Shown here piece after piece: positions 3,542 through 7,245 of a stretch of 49,374 nucleotides of DNA. The position numbers and the translations under genes were made by a program. Origin of the DNA: Tropicimonas sp. IMCC6043 (GTDB lineage: Bacteria > Pseudomonadota > Alphaproteobacteria > Rhodobacterales > Rhodobacteraceae); the NCBI RefSeq assembly GCF_004146235.1, contig NZ_SELO01000028.1, positions 1-49,374 of the forward strand. Direction: 5' to 3'. A model generated the notes under the pieces. It ran no database searches, was not told the origin of the DNA, and saw only the letters and a program-made list of their open reading frames with translations. Every line of letters begins with the position of its first letter. Positions within the stretch are counted from its first letter, which is position 1.

Positions 3542-4855
3542 ATGAATGACAGCAAGACCGCGCCGATCCCGCCGGCCGCCCGGACCCTCCCGCGCATCGC
3601 CTATCTCACCTCGCAATATCCGACGGTATCGCACACCTTCATCCTGCGCGAGGTCGAGACGCTGCGCCGCCTCGGGGCGGAGGTGCTGACCTGTTCGATC
3701 CGGCGGACCCCGCCCGCACAGCATCGCGGCCCGGCCGAGCGGGATGCGGCCGCGACCACGTTCAACGTGCTGCAATCGCTGCGCAGTCCGCGCCGGGTCC
3801 TCGCCGCCCAGGCGCGTTATCTCCGGCGACCGGGCCGCTACTCTGCAACCCTGGCGCTGGCGCTCCGGACCAGCGGTCCGGGGCTCCGGGCCTGGCTCTA
3901 CCAGTGGATCTATTTCCTCGAGGCGGTGATGCTTGCCGACCACCTCGAAAGCGAGCGGGTCACGCATCTGCACAACCATTTCACGTCGGGCTGCGGCACG
4001 GTGGCGATGCTGGCCTCCGAGCTGAGCGGCATCCCCTTCAGCCTCACCCTGCACGGGCCGGCCGATCTCGAGGAGCCGCGGCGCTGGCGCCTTGACGAGA
4101 AGGTCGCGCGGGCGCGCTTCGTCGCCGCGATCAGCCATTTCGCACGTAGCCAGCTGATGCTCCGGAGCGACCCCACGCACTGGCCGAAGATCCGCATCGT
4201 GCATTGCGGTGTCGCGCCGGCGCGCTATGAAGCGGAGGCCGGCGATCCGATCCCGGAACGTCGCGACGGCGAGATCCGGCTGCTCTTCGTCGGCCGGCTG
4301 GCGCCGGTCAAGGGGCTCAGGATCCTGCTCGAGGCGATGGGGCACCTCATGGTTTCCCTGCCGGACCTGCATCTCGTCATTGTCGGCGACGGCCCGGATC
4401 GCGCCGCGCTGGAGGCCGCCGCCGCGCCGCTCGGCGCCGCGGTAAGCTTCACTGGCTATCTCTCTCAGGACGAGGTCGCCAGCGCCATGCAATCCTGCGA
4501 CATCTTCGTGTTGCCGAGCTTTGCCGAGGGCGTGCCGGTGGTGCTGATGGAGGCGTTGGCGAGTTGCCGGCCGGTCATCGCCACGCAGGTGGCCGGGGTG
4601 GGCGAACTTGTCGAGGATGGCAAGAGCGGCTTCATCGTCCCGCCGGGCGATGCCGCGACGTTGGCCGACCGGATCGGTCGCCTAGCCGCCGATCCGGAGC
4701 TTCGCGACCGGATGGGACGGCACGGTCAGGCGGTCGTCCGGGCGGAATTCGACATCGAGACCGAGGCGGCCCGGCTCGCGCGCCTTCTGGTCGACGTGCC
4801 GGGAACGGGCAGCGCACCGCGGCCGGAGCCATTGTCAATCGCATCGGACGGTTGA
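3542..4855 (+). CDS. Glycosyltransferase family 4 protein (colanic-acid WcaL-like)
   Basis: This 437-residue GT-B glycosyltransferase has an N-terminal acceptor domain (RIAYLTSQYPTVSHTFILRE, then THLHNHFTSGCGTVAMLASE and FSLTLHGPADLEEP) and a C-terminal donor domain (RLLFVGRLAPVKGLRILLEA and the E-x7-E motif in FAEGVPVVLMEALA). The N-terminal pattern matches WcaL/AmsK-like transferases that extend exopolysaccharide repeat units on a lipid carrier. The ATG at 3542 begins MNDSKTAPIPPAART; the longer in-frame start at 3476 falls in the shared promoter region with the divergent GT2 gene. Sugar specificity is unknown. Confidence 0.9.
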   Translation: MNDSKTAPIPPAARTLPRIAYLTSQYPTVSHTFILREVETLRRLGAEVLTCSIRRTPPAQHRGPAERDAAATTFNVLQSLRSPRRVLAAQARYLRRPGRYSATLALALRTSGPGLRAWLYQWIYFLEAVMLADHLESERVTHLHNHFTSGCGTVAMLASELSGIPFSLTLHGPADLEEPRRWRLDEKVARARFVAAISHFARSQLMLRSDPTHWPKIRIVHCGVAPARYEAEAGDPIPERRDGEIRLLFVGRLAPVKGLRILLEAMGHLMVSLPDLHLVIVGDGPDRAALEAAAAPLGAAVSFTGYLSQDEVASAMQSCDIFVLPSFAEGVPVVLMEALASCRPVIATQVAGVGELVEDGKSGFIVPPGDAATLADRIGRLAADPELRDRMGRHGQAVVRAEFDIETEAARLARLLVDVPGTGSAPRPEPLSIASDG

Positions 4856-4883
4856 GGCGCTCCGGCGCGGTCCGCAGATCCAC

Positions 4884-4928
4884 AAAAAAACGGCGGCGAC
4901 ACGGGGGAGGAGTTCCGTGTCGCCGCCG
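4884..4928 (-). terminator. Terminator of the DUF1127 gene, with a CUCCUCCC loop
   Basis: A perfect 14-bp stem (CGGCGGCGACACGG at 4891-4904 with CCGTGTCGCCGCCG at 4915-4928) is followed on the minus strand by seven T (4890-4884), a strong intrinsic terminator for the DUF1127 transcript. Its minus-strand loop contains CUCCUCCC, the same core as the eight hairpins at 5420-5849, so it belongs to the same family of stem-loops and may also be functional as RNA. Confidence 0.8.
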
Positions 4929-4971
4929 GATGTGCGACCGAGAGGGAGGAGGGCGGTCGCGGGAAAGCGTC

Positions 4972-5187
4972 TCAGGCCGCGTCTACGGCGGCGCGAGCGA
5001 TCTCAGGGAATTGGCTGCGGTTCAGGCCCAGGTCATCGGCCTCGCGGTCGCTCATCTCGTTGAGTTCGCGGAGCGTACGGCGATAGGCGCGGAACTGGTT
5101 GACCTTCCGGCGGGCGCTCTCTGTGGTCGCGGTGAACCAGGCGCTCATCGGGCCGGCGTCGATGCGGGATGTCTGTGCAAGTTCCAT
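4972..5187 (-). CDS. DUF1127 small RNA-associated protein (CcaF1-like)
   Basis: This is a 71-residue, Arg-rich protein. The DUF1127 core is RRKVNQFRAYRRTLRELNEM followed by SDREADDLGLNRSQFPEIAR. In Rhodobacter sphaeroides the DUF1127 protein CcaF1, of similar size, sits in an operon with the CcsR small RNAs and is reported to bind RNA and affect their maturation. That knowledge plus the adjacent hairpin array (5414-5849) makes an RNA-binding role likely here. An AAGGA ribosome-binding site (plus 5196-5200) precedes the ATG at 5187. A candidate promoter lies at 5269-5296 and a terminator at 4884-4928. In R. sphaeroides the protein gene precedes the RNAs; here it follows them on the same strand. 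Confidence 0.88.
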   Translation of the reverse strand: MELAQTSRIDAGPMSAWFTATTESARRKVNQFRAYRRTLRELNEMSDREADDLGLNRSQFPEIARAAVDAA

Positions 5188-5245
5188 GTCACGTGTCCTT
5201 CGGAGTGTCCGGATCGGTCCCGGACCGGTTGCGAGCGCCGCTTCA

Positions 5246-5325
5246 TGTTAGCGCTCTCTTCGACGCACAACCTAGTCATTCCACCGGCAGTCACAATCGG
5301 GAGTCCGGTCAAACCCGCTATGCAG
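5246..5325 (-). promoter_or_regulatory. Shared regulatory block A (upstream of DUF1127)
   Basis: On the minus strand this block starts with CTGCATAGCGG (5325-5315) and ends with AGCGCTAACA (5255-5246), exactly 59 bases apart. The same two sequences, also 59 bases apart, occur in block B at 5943-6022 before the hairpin array. A TTGA at the same offset after the first motif and a GATT further in are also shared. Either both are binding sites of the same regulator, or the two promoter regions are a duplication. Confidence 0.6.
5269..5296 (-). promoter_or_regulatory. Candidate promoter of the DUF1127 gene
   Basis: On the minus strand TTGTGA (5296-5291), a 16-base spacer and TAGGTT (5274-5269) would start transcription near 5262, leaving a 75-nt leader. 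It was located by projecting from the candidate promoter of the hairpin array at 5966-5993 (TTGAGA, 16 bases, TATTTT), because both sit at the same distance from two shared flanking motifs (5246-5255 and 5315-5325). The elements resemble alphaproteobacterial heat-shock-type or sigma-70 promoters, but the match is weak. Confidence 0.35.
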
Positions 5326-5413
5326 AAGGGTCGTATCGAGCCCGTGGGAGAGGCTGCGCGACGACGCCTGTTCCCGGAGGGGCCGCTGCCGGACGAACGA
5401 TGCTGAGGGGCAG

Positions 5414-5491
5414 AAAAAAGCGGCGACACCAGGGAGGAGGGAGGTGTCGCTGCCAAAACACAGAAAACCCAGGGAGGAGGACGGGTTCTCT
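5414..5491 (-). ncRNA. Cuckoo/CcsR-like small RNA, copy 4 (terminator copy)
   Basis: Two adjacent hairpins: 5462-5470 with 5483-5491, and 5420-5430 with 5443-5453. Both minus-strand loops contain CCUCCUCCC. The A-C mismatch in the first stem as read on the plus strand becomes a G-U wobble on the minus strand, which favours minus-strand transcription. The second hairpin is followed by six T (5419-5414) and is therefore also the intrinsic terminator of the array. The two-hairpin plan with CCUCCUCCC loops is the definition of the CcsR/cuckoo RNAs of R. sphaeroides and relatives. Confidence 0.8.
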
Positions 5492-5545
5492 GATCCTGTA
5501 ACCGCGCCGCGTGGGCGCGGGCCGGTCCAGCCGGCGAAGAAGGGT

Positions 5546-5616
5546 GCGGCGACACCAGGGAGGAGGAAGGTGCCGCCGCGGAACCGAAAGACCCAGGGAG
5601 GAGGACGGATCTTCGG
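5546..5616 (-). ncRNA. Cuckoo/CcsR-like small RNA, copy 3
   Basis: Two hairpins: 5584-5594 with 5606-5616 (stem with a small internal loop), and 5546-5556 with 5569-5579. Both minus-strand loops contain CCUCCUCCC. In the second stem a plus-strand A-C mismatch is a G-U wobble on the minus strand. The spacer toward copy 4 (5492-5545) holds further GC-rich hairpins such as GCCGG-TCCAG-CCGGC. Confidence 0.78.
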
Positions 5617-5672
5617 AACTGTAAACTTGTTGCGCCGTTTCGGCGCGCCGGGCGAACCCGGCCGTATCGGGT

Positions 5673-5749
5673 GCGGTGACACCGGGAGGAGGAGGGTGCC
5701 GCCGCCGAAACTGGTGACCCGGGGAGGAGGATCGGGTCGTCCGGTTTCG
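5673..5749 (-). ncRNA. Cuckoo/CcsR-like small RNA, copy 2
   Basis: Two directly abutting hairpins: 5706-5720 with 5734-5749, and 5673-5683 with 5695-5705. Both minus-strand loops contain CCUCCUCCC. The spacer toward copy 3 (5617-5672) contains two small hairpins, GCGCCG-TTT-CGGCGC and CCGGG-CGAA-CCCGG, which could be removed during processing. Confidence 0.78.
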
Positions 5750-5778
5750 TATCTCCGCCCTTGCGGGCGGTATCTTGT

Positions 5779-5849
5779 GGCGGCAGCATCAGGGAGGAGG
5801 AGGATGCTGCCGCCGTATCAGAGAGCCCAGGGAGGAGACGGGCTTCTGA
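5779..5849 (-). ncRNA. Cuckoo/CcsR-like small RNA, copy 1 (promoter-proximal)
   Basis: Two hairpins: 5818-5828 with 5840-5849, and a perfect 12-bp stem 5779-5790 with 5803-5814. The second minus-strand loop holds CCUCCUCCC; the first holds UCUCCUCCC, one base off. The motif pairs with Shine-Dalgarno sequences and resembles the 3' end of 16S rRNA. In R. sphaeroides these RNAs are stress-induced and influence C1 metabolism and redox balance; that role is borrowed here, not shown. Confidence 0.78.
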
Positions 5850-5942
5850 ATGCTATGTCCTGCGCCACCGATCTTCCTCCGGATCTTTCAAGATGTCCTG
5901 CCAGAGACAGGTTTCGATCTCGTTAGCGCCGGAAGGAGTGAC

Positions 5943-6022
5943 TGTTAGCGCTTTCGTTGGAATTCAAAATAAGGAAGACGGCAGGTTTCTCAATCGCTGT
6001 CGGGCTCAATGCCGCTATGCAG
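5943..6022 (-). promoter_or_regulatory. Shared regulatory block B (upstream of the hairpin array)
   Basis: On the minus strand CTGCATAGCGG (6022-6012) and AGCGCTAACA (5952-5943) are 59 bases apart, as in block A at 5246-5325. A third GCGCTAAC occurs at 5929-5922. On the plus strand the first motif overlaps an inverted repeat TATGCA-gcatt-TGCATA (6016-6032). A candidate promoter, TTGAGA (5993-5988), 16 bases, TATTTT (5971-5966), lies between the motifs and would give a leader of about 110 nt before the first hairpin. Confidence 0.6.
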
Positions 6023-6153
6023 CATTTGCATACGTTCTTCTGACCTAAATTCTGGCGCCGTGCCTCGAATTTGAGCGGGCATCGAACCGACCTTGCACTC
6101 CGCGCAGGGCGCGGTAGGTGTTCAAGCAGGATTTCCGGAAGCTGGATGGAAAA

Positions 6154-7245
6154 ATGGCGGTTACCCGCGAAGAAGTTGTCAAGGTGCTGGAACGCGTGAA
6201 TTTGCCCGATGGTGGCGATCTTGTCTCACGCGACCTGCTGCGTGCGCTCACGGTCGATTCGGACGGGCGGGTCAGTTTCGTGATCGAGGCCGAGTCGGCC
6301 GCCTCCGCGCGGCAGTTGGAGCCGGTCCGCCAGCAAGTCGAGTCAGCTGTCGCCGGGATCGCTGGCGTGACAAGCGTCTCCGCGGTGCTAACAGCCCCCA
6401 CGGCGGCTCCCCGCGGTTCCGCGCCGGCGGGTGCGCCGCCCAATCTGACGATCGGGCGTCATCCCACCGCGCAACAGTCCGGTCCGCAGCCCGTTCCAGG
6501 CATCGCTCGCATCCTGCTCGTTGGGTCCGGCAAGGGCGGCGTCGGCAAGTCCACGGTCTCTGCCAATCTCGCGGTGGCCCTGGCGCGACAGGGGCGGCGC
6601 GTCGGCCTGCTCGATGCCGATATCTACGGCCCCTCGATCCCGCGGATGATGGGCACCAACAGTCGTCCGGCCTCGCCCGATGGCAAGAAGATCGAACCGC
6701 TCACCGCACATGGCGTGAAGCTGATGTCGATGGGGGCGATGCTTCGGGAGGCCGAGGCGGTGATCTGGCGCGGGCCGATGCTGATGGGCGCGATGCAGCA
6801 GATGCTGGGCGACGTGCTCTGGGGCGATCTCGACGTTCTCGTCATAGACCTTCCGCCCGGCACCGGCGACGTCCAGCTCACCCTCGGGCAGCGATACCGC
6901 ACCAACGGGGCGATCATCGTCTCGACGCCACAGGACGTTGCGCTGATCGACGCGCGCCGCGCCATCGACATGTTCGTTAAGCTCAAGGTGCCGATCCTCG
7001 GTCTGATCGAGAACATGTCGACCTATGTCTGCCCGCAATGCGGGCACGAGGCGCATCTGTTCGGCCATGGCGGGGTCGTCGCCGAGGCGAAGAAGCTCGA
7101 GGTTCCCTTCCTCGGCGCACTGCCGCTCGAACTCGAGACCCGGCTCGCCGGCGACAGCGGCGCCCCTGTGGCGCTTGGCGAGGGCGCGGCGGCCGCTGCC
7201 TATGGTGCGCTTGCGGCGCGTCTGGTTGGCGGCGGCATGGCCTGA
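6154..7245 (+). CDS. apbC: Iron-sulfur cluster carrier ATPase Mrp/ApbC
   Basis: This 363-residue protein is an NTP-dependent scaffold that delivers Fe-S clusters in the cytoplasm. The N-terminus (about 1-80) is a MIP18/DUF59-type domain (TREEVVKVLERVNLPDGGDL). After a Pro/Ala linker the P-loop domain carries the deviant Walker A GSGKGGVGKST, the LDADIYGPSIPRMMG segment, VIDLPPGTGDVQ and the cluster-binding CPQC in STYVCPQCGHEAHLFG. The ATG at 6154 is preferred over an upstream GTG at 6118. It is a single gene ended by a strong terminator at 7273-7299. Confidence 0.93.
   Translation: MAVTREEVVKVLERVNLPDGGDLVSRDLLRALTVDSDGRVSFVIEAESAASARQLEPVRQQVESAVAGIAGVTSVSAVLTAPTAAPRGSAPAGAPPNLTIGRHPTAQQSGPQPVPGIARILLVGSGKGGVGKSTVSANLAVALARQGRRVGLLDADIYGPSIPRMMGTNSRPASPDGKKIEPLTAHGVKLMSMGAMLREAEAVIWRGPMLMGAMQQMLGDVLWGDLDVLVIDLPPGTGDVQLTLGQRYRTNGAIIVSTPQDVALIDARRAIDMFVKLKVPILGLIENMSTYVCPQCGHEAHLFGHGGVVAEAKKLEVPFLGALPLELETRLAGDSGAPVALGEGAAAAAYGALAARLVGGGMA

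Follow-up and report, generated by a model that had tools for sequence, protein, structure and literature searches.

A run of hairpins that share an anti-Shine-Dalgarno (aSD) loop lies at positions 5414–5849 of the window, by which we mean the whole analysed stretch of 49,374 nt, and raises the question of what kind of RNA is encoded here, what drives it and what it acts upon. The most probable answer, which we place at roughly 0.7, is a CIN1/cuckoo-type array of a Rhodobacteraceae bacterium that is activated by LsrB, free of ccaF1 and engaged in silencing uptake mRNAs. The computed basis consists of conserved structure and strand, homology, synteny, loss of a leader gene, an operator together with its genomic specificity, and the presence of an ortholog of the regulator; from these we infer that the array is transcribed, where its transcript begins and ends, that it is processed, that LsrB binds and that targets are silenced. 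The kind of locus is already known as cuckoo/CcsR (CIN1), and the present one is a variant by virtue of its leaderless arrangement and its operator.

A CcsR-like array of two-hairpin units

The minus strand of the window has 10 copies of CTCCTCCC, always inside 4905–5837, and the plus strand has none; in 100 dinucleotide shuffles of the window, copies averaged 3.14 and never exceeded 8. Ten hairpins with CUCCUCCC loops on the minus strand (4888–5853) make up five two-hairpin units, and the eight such stem-loops at 5415–5853 (minus strand) constitute four tandem units. The original prediction of eight minus-strand loops in 5414–5849, seven with the full CCTCCTCCC and all with different stems, is borne out, and its grouping into four pairs is evident from core-to-core distances of 38, 38, 38 and 40. 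Its spacing of 29–56 bases between pairs was about right, the Rfam unit matches being separated by 26, 47 and 44 bases; all four pairs are real, but a fifth pair on the same strand, with cores at 4905 and 4944, had been overlooked. The GC-rich hairpins that it placed in the inter-unit spacers (e.g. 5755–5770) are present in the predicted fold and are possible processing or protection elements.

All five units match the Rfam family CcsR1 (RF02791) over model positions 1–83 of 83 (E-values 1.7e-12 to 2.7e-6), with 43.6 bits for unit 1 (5775–5853), 34.6 for unit 2 (5668–5748), 55.5 for unit 3 (5541–5620), 45.6 for unit 4 (5415–5496) and 39.9 for unit 5 (4888–4967; fold z -8.15), all on the minus strand. 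They have the two hairpins of CcsR1 with CCUCCUCCC in each loop, save that two of the ten loops carry CUCCUCCC only. The CcsR1 gathering score of 65.3 is reached by none of the five (34.6–55.5 bits), nor by the second locus in the genome (55.3 bits), and we therefore name the units CcsR-like instead of assigning them to RF02791. Likewise, no window unit reaches the gathering score of ar14 (NfeR1, RF02344), which is 58.8 (26.3–42.5 bits obtained). At gathering threshold, an Rfam scan of the window returned a single tRNA and nothing else; weak matches to ar7, 6C, STnc500, sX13, mir and others all lay under the cut-off.

The 3' hairpin of unit 4 followed by U6 (5419–5414, minus strand) resembles a Rho-independent terminator, as does the end hairpin of unit 5 with U7 (4890–4884, minus strand). 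Both are absent from the list of our terminator scan, which admits loops of 3–8 nt only; the unit 5 loop is too long for it. Unit 5 lies 3' of an ORF for a DUF1127 protein of 71 aa (4972–5187, minus strand; PF06568 44.6 bits, cut-off 23.3). This second cassette (5187–4888) thus combines a short DUF1127 gene with a CcsR-like RNA, the defining arrangement of CIN1, and so does the second genomic locus (C79:396579–396660, L009), in which DUF1127 is followed by a single CcsR unit (55.3 bits), then by a U-run and lastly by a further DUF1127 gene. The CcsR1 search of the genome, in which 150 of 4761 candidates were scored, gave at least 11 matches with E-values of 1 or less; six are strong (E 2.2e-6 or better), namely the five window units and C79, and the other five have E-values of 0.33–0.97.

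CcsR1 matches are found in 30 of 60 related genomes, among them all eight of the genus, where loci are often tandem cassettes of operator, DUF1127 gene and CcsR unit. Some relatives have loci built in this way whose units exceed the Rfam cut-off (86.7 bits in G028, 84.2 in G033 and 66.4 in G002). Since loop, unit plan and neighbourhood are shared with these relatives, the locus is of the cuckoo/CIN1 type. The number of cores per array among relatives ranges from 2 to 23, the largest array being that of Primorskyibacter flagellatus (L095; 23 CUCCUCCC cores).

Loss of the DUF1127 leader gene

In Rhodobacter sphaeroides, ccaF1 is reported to be co-transcribed ahead of the four CcsR RNAs (PMC10253847). 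The window array resembles this CcsR1-4/ccaF1 system (CIN1, RF02791) in its tandem two-hairpin units, CCUCCUCCC loops, nearby DUF1127 and terminator-like end hairpin. Against what papers and the Rfam model show of the R. sphaeroides system, however, the array differs: it has no DUF1127 leader, its promoter has a LysR-type operator, a fifth unit stands behind a separate DUF1127 cassette and the Rfam scores are below the cut-off. The R. sphaeroides CcsR1-4 plan proposed for this locus therefore holds for the tandem two-hairpin units but not for the leader gene, nor does it include the downstream DUF1127 gene, to which a promoter-like element and an extra CcsR unit belong.

The syntenic anchor is mrp (6118–7245, plus strand; PF10609 321 bits), a divergent neighbour encoding a Fe-S P-loop ATPase. 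The interval from mrp to the first hairpin has no DUF1127 ORF in the window, so that the ccaF1-CcsR operon plan is missing there, whereas such an ORF occupies this interval in 92 of 99 usable loci. Only five of the 99 are without any leader ORF: the window, G006 (L047), G030 (L067), L073 and Paenirhodobacter enshiensis L141. In the other two (Maritimibacter L098 and L138), the leader position holds an ORF of 41 aa that does not match DUF1127. The 99 loci do not include L046, L054 and L064 (no Mrp detected), L086 and L146 (no array, contig ends by mrp) and L137 (no array), and cassettes that are not beside mrp (L009, L041, L043, L048, L050, L052 and L062) were likewise omitted from the counts. 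Some of the loci counted are not independent: L149/L059 and L125/L065 are apparently the same records, L112/L115 come from one strain and L111/L124 have identical Mrp. L124 is titled Croceicoccus sp. (MAG) and its Mrp is identical to that of the Paracoccus MAG L111, a probable binning error.

The distance from the Mrp match to the first loop core is 281 nt in the window versus 521–541 nt in the six leader-bearing members of the genus that were measured. Alignment with G003, G007 and G008 indicates that the promoter-proximal part of the leader is retained and the ORF body lost; the remnant region is 5854–5922 (minus strand), where, relative to G003, G008, G007 and G006, the body of the CcaF1-like DUF1127 ORF is gone. 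On a quick Mrp tree with 96 labelled rows (a single gene, SH-aLRT only, 32 of 95 inner branches open), presence of the leader changes five times. In this tree the window is joined to G003 and G008 (SH-aLRT 99), both of which bear the leader, so its own loss probably occurred inside that group. DUF1127 matches are retained elsewhere in the genomes of leaderless loci, with seven here, five in G006, one in G030, two in the genome of L141 and two in that of L073.

A LysR-type operator upstream of the array

The predicted array promoter, TTGAGA-N16-TATTTT (5966–5993, minus strand), is the sole promoter-like site in 4700–6200, where 0.2 are expected. Upstream of it lies a predicted LsrB/VtlR-type operator, TGCAAATGCTGCATAGCGGCATTG (6007–6030, minus strand), with TGCA-N6-GCAT at 6030–6017, predicted to be -71 to -58. 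LsrB is reported to bind TGCA-N6-GCAT at -72 to -60 of nfeR1, an aSD sRNA gene of Sinorhizobium meliloti, and to activate it (PMC10746234); an LsrB consensus is described at -61 to -49 of abcR1 (PMC8844928). The array element is thus exact in sequence and about equal in position, the latter as counted from a predicted promoter. The array operator does not match the stricter consensus given for rhizobia, GCAT-N3-TG-N3-T (PMC7486931), because it has G in place of the T of TG; the same position is replaced in 90 of 90 boxes (A in 50, G in 37 and C in 3).

The operator is conserved in relatives and, in its extended form, confined to the CcsR loci of this genome. The operator 15-mer is present within two mismatches at 90 of 101 loci, and TTG follows the operator by 12–13 nt in 81 of 83 distinct promoter sequences. 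TGCA-N6-GCAT in register is exact at 60 of 95 loci, with one mismatch at 31 and two at four, while shifted controls always have at least four mismatches. The GCAT half is part of the box that was used to select loci, whereas the TGCA half is independent, and among 90 boxes the latter matches fully in 59, with one mismatch in 27 and two in four. In the 5.46-Mb genome, TGCA-N6-GCATNGCNGCATTG at no more than one mismatch is found in two places, the array and the second CcsR locus. Similarly, CAATGCAGCCATGCA is quoted as a reported VtlR-binding motif (PMC12595884), and CAATGCNGCNATGCA, in which the two positions where the array operator departs from it are left free, has two mismatch-free copies genome-wide, both at CcsR loci. 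Across 12 genomes the combined 24-mer at no more than one mismatch occurs in 27 places and the reversed pattern in one; of the 19 places examined, 17 are at CcsR/DUF1127 cassettes and two are about 70 nt behind the LysR match. An exact copy apart from a CcsR locus is found in G001 (C1:181056–181079). The operator is degenerate at the Rhodobacter loci L143–L145, where the best sites have two to three mismatches to the 15-mer and do not always lie on the strand expected, and it is poor or partly decayed at two of the five leaderless loci (two mismatches in G006, four in G030). The second cassette of the window has a weaker operator (5310–5324, minus strand; two mismatches to the 15-mer).

Two GCGCTAAC elements, also seen in the genus, lie just 3' of the predicted start (5923–5951, minus strand). 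Most DUF1127/CcsR cassettes of the genus have the element some 70 nt behind the operator, and ahead of the main array it is often doubled; further copies are at 5248–5254 in the second cassette and at positions 2302 and 2826 of L009.

An ortholog of VtlR/LsrB beside a SorX-like sRNA

In Agrobacterium, vtlR is reported to adjoin trxB and abcR genes, and the trxB-vtlR order is called well conserved in the class (PMC7486931). With a profile (A1) of 12 trxB-adjacent LysR proteins from a class-wide sample, we detected a VtlR/LsrB ortholog at C272:102544–103425 with 385.6 bits, the runner-up scoring 178.6. Orthologs above 300 bits are present in 58 of 61 genomes of the family, and the remaining three genomes are 74–86% complete. 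No LysR gene adjoining trxB in this genome is in the ORF list, and the ORFs at the side of trxB are unmatched by the LysR set of the genome. A SorX/SorY-like sRNA is instead found within about 450 nt of the LysR gene at 11 of the 12 best-scoring loci (L236–L247) of the 61 genomes; L333 and L334, which were picked for operator matches, stand outside this count. In the present genome this SorX-like sRNA (C272; L245 1298–1373, minus strand) scores 47.2 bits against an Rfam cut-off of 46.6, and exact TGCA-N6-GCAT lies 76 nt upstream of it. Overall, the operator is found no more than 140 nt upstream of the sRNA exactly in six of the 11 cases and at no more than one mismatch in 10, compared with 1.2% and 9.8%, respectively, of 2200 random segments. 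The arrangement recalls the Rhizobiales VtlR/LsrB regulon (AbcR, DUF1127) in that a VtlR-type LysR gene stands beside an sRNA and DUF1127 genes have a related operator; it differs in that the adjacent sRNA is SorX/SorY-like (RF02784/RF02651) and trxB is elsewhere in the genome.

An ordinary CcsR locus under RpoH control, with stress sigma factors acting alone and the LysR-like palindrome an unrelated conserved element, is the first alternative to be weighed. The CcsR promoter of R. sphaeroides, that of ccaF1-CcsR, is reported to be driven by RpoHI/RpoHII (PMC10253847, PMC8307010), which counts against LsrB; the TTG/TAT hexamers of the array promoter also fit the RpoHI/RpoHII promoter description (PMC10673084), and the compatible spacing is conserved here too. 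Moreover, LsrB is stated in one report to be unique to Rhizobiales (PMC11975290), which again counts against it here, as do the degenerate operators of L143–L145 and the lack of a LysR gene beside trxB. A search of literature outside the key primary papers on CcsR, CcaF1 and cuckoo RNAs found no paper tying LsrB/VtlR to CcsR. Nevertheless, the palindrome is kept across the family at the published LsrB spacing and position, and TGCA-N6-GCAT recurs before the SorX-like sRNA beside the LsrB ortholog, so that control by RpoH alone appears unlikely to us. The two kinds of control are compatible and both models can hold.

Candidate targets are rich in uptake systems

The loops are complementary to strong Shine-Dalgarno sites. 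The pattern GGGAGGAG-N4-9-ATG has 36 matches in the genome and its reverse four; without two overlapping duplicates and the array itself, 33 distinct sites with a fully complementary ribosome site remain, a count that covers perfect 8-nt sites before ATG and does not extend to shorter sites or GTG/TTG starts. Thirty of the 33 were scanned, the other three having ORFs of 1, 7 and 14 aa. For the control pattern GAAAGGAG, 40 of 41 sites were taken (C293:59221 was omitted), of which 31 encode at least 100 aa and 30 were scanned (L314, similar to L311, was omitted). Parts of uptake transporters account for 11 of 25 Pfam-assigned target sites versus one of 25 in the control (Fisher p 0.002), although the category was not chosen blind, since reports on NfeR1 (PMC10746234) and an initial inspection of the proteins had suggested it. 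The 11 are BPD_transp_1, Peripla_BP_4 (two), Peripla_BP_6, DctP (two), TctC, TctB, NMT1_3, SBP_bac_1 and a MalK-type ABC protein; the other 14 assigned sites form a mixture that includes two HlyD-type proteins, a FadL-type one, dehydrogenases and a response regulator. It may also be that GGGAGG sites are simply favoured by transporter genes.

NfeR1 (alpha-r14, RF02344) of S. meliloti is another close parallel in the features compared: it has CCUCCUCCC aSD loops, variable stems, transporter-type candidate targets and an LsrB operator TGCA-N6-GCAT at about the same distance from the start, which is predicted here. It is described as a three-hairpin CCUCCUCCC sRNA that silences through its aSD loops (PMC10746234), whereas the window units form an array with DUF1127 genes and score 26.3–42.5 bits, below the 58.8 of the family. 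The loops might alternatively serve as a global buffer, mimicking the tail of 16S rRNA and titrating strong Shine-Dalgarno sites generally, with loop number acting as dose. An invariant loop on drifting stems, the range of 2 to 23 cores per array and the reported redundancy of NfeR1 loops (PMC10746234) are all in keeping with such a role; yet perfect 8-nt sites before ATG are few (33) and rich in transport genes, and we hold general titration to be improbable.

Covarying stems and the RNA strand

Structure was compared in 448 units, 413 of them distinct, drawn from 105 pooled loci: 80 named ones, 24 stretches from related genomes and the window itself. When arms were swapped between species among the 413 distinct units, the mean stem score fell from 7.4 to 4.24 for the 5' hairpin and from 10.46 to 6.04 for the 3' hairpin. 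All four Watson-Crick pair types are used at most stem positions, indicating compensatory change. An ungapped column covariation map (77 units, core distance 38) proved unusable because loop lengths vary, and the arm-swap test was used in its place. Cuckoo RNAs were reportedly defined by Reinkensmeier and Giegerich in 2015 by a conserved aSD loop motif with freely varying stems, and the window units have this combination.

Interior appositions in 626 distinct hairpins are G-T in 260 cases and A-C in 45. By locus, 79 lean to G-T and seven to A-C, with 19 ties that include loci without hairpins; as the loci are related by descent, this per-locus count is the fairer figure and p values are not literal. 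The original prediction based its choice of strand on stems 5462–5491 and 5546–5579, where A-C on the plus strand becomes G-U on the minus strand. Both cases are real, but A-C also occurs on the minus strand at 5419–5454 and in the 5684 stem, so that the window alone is undecided (strict interior count, four G-T versus two A-C), and it is over the relatives that the minus strand is upheld. With a lax stem criterion the counts are nine G-T versus 12 A-C in the window and 549 versus 297 at all loci; as proof of a hairpin this criterion was dropped, since 956 of 4000 random positions also satisfied it. The fold z of the array is -10.8 on the minus strand and -4.4 on the plus strand. Because the stems covary and interior G-U pairs are in excess over the relatives, the minus strand is the RNA strand of the array. 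Absence of covariation, or a preference for the plus strand among relatives, would have spoken against the predicted CcsR/cuckoo homology; instead, CcsR1 matches all five units, the loop is kept, the stems covary, the minus strand is favoured and relatives exceed the cut-off.

A plus-strand RNA acting as a CsrB-like sponge for CsrA, to which plus-strand loops reading GGGAGGAGG with their GGA would lend themselves, is very improbable and was rejected, because CsrA (PF02599) is unmatched in the genome (three of 14 control genomes give a match), and strand bias, fold and the sole promoter-like site in 4700–6200 favour the minus strand. Chance or DNA-level inverted repeats without an RNA role (REP-like elements or stacked terminators) would account for the terminator-like hairpins that close both cassettes but hardly for a conserved loop, covarying stems, a one-strand G-U excess and conserved adjacency to mrp, and have a negligible likelihood.

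A model for the array and its implications

For the LsrB-activated array we propose a minus-strand transcript of about 545 nt that would start near 5959 and end at the U-run near 5414. The LysR-type operator would be read by the VtlR/LsrB ortholog as an activator, perhaps jointly with RpoH-type sigma factors. RNase E would then probably cleave the transcript to yield four CcsR-like RNAs, each about 80 nt long; processing of CcsR RNAs by RNase E is reported for R. sphaeroides (PMC10253847, PMC8625941). Each RNA would expose two CUCCUCCC-type loops which, in a pairing modelled on NfeR1, may block translation by binding Shine-Dalgarno sites of the GGGAGGAG type; mRNAs of uptake systems (ABC, TRAP and TTT) are prominent candidate targets. 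The CcaF1-type DUF1127 gene that usually precedes the RNAs is no longer part of the array transcript, and DUF1127 proteins are now supplied by separate genes only, of which one is next door with its own CcsR unit and more are elsewhere in the genome. In R. sphaeroides, CcaF1 is reported to take part in CcsR maturation and extra CcaF1 to interfere (PMC10253847, PMC8307010); loss of ccaF1 from the transcript would thus uncouple RNA dose from CcaF1 protein.

More broadly, we lean somewhat towards the view that one old LysR regulator (VtlR/LsrB) commands aSD RNAs and their DUF1127 partners across alphaproteobacteria, including NfeR1 and AbcR in rhizobia and CcsR arrays and the SorX/SorY-like RNA in Rhodobacteraceae. 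The array would have shed its partner gene separately here and in four other lineages, becoming a stand-alone brake on uptake, and the loss here would have left the operator intact. The literature, as far as the sources cited cover it, places CcsR/CcaF1 in R. sphaeroides as a stress operon driven by RpoH, and assigns LsrB/VtlR to regulation in rhizobia and their kin. A shared operator, if true, would join these two fields, and both the governing signal and the reason why DUF1127 genes travel with the RNAs would become testable. Furthermore, the repeated losses of the leader gene are natural knock-outs for the cis requirement of CcaF1-type proteins.
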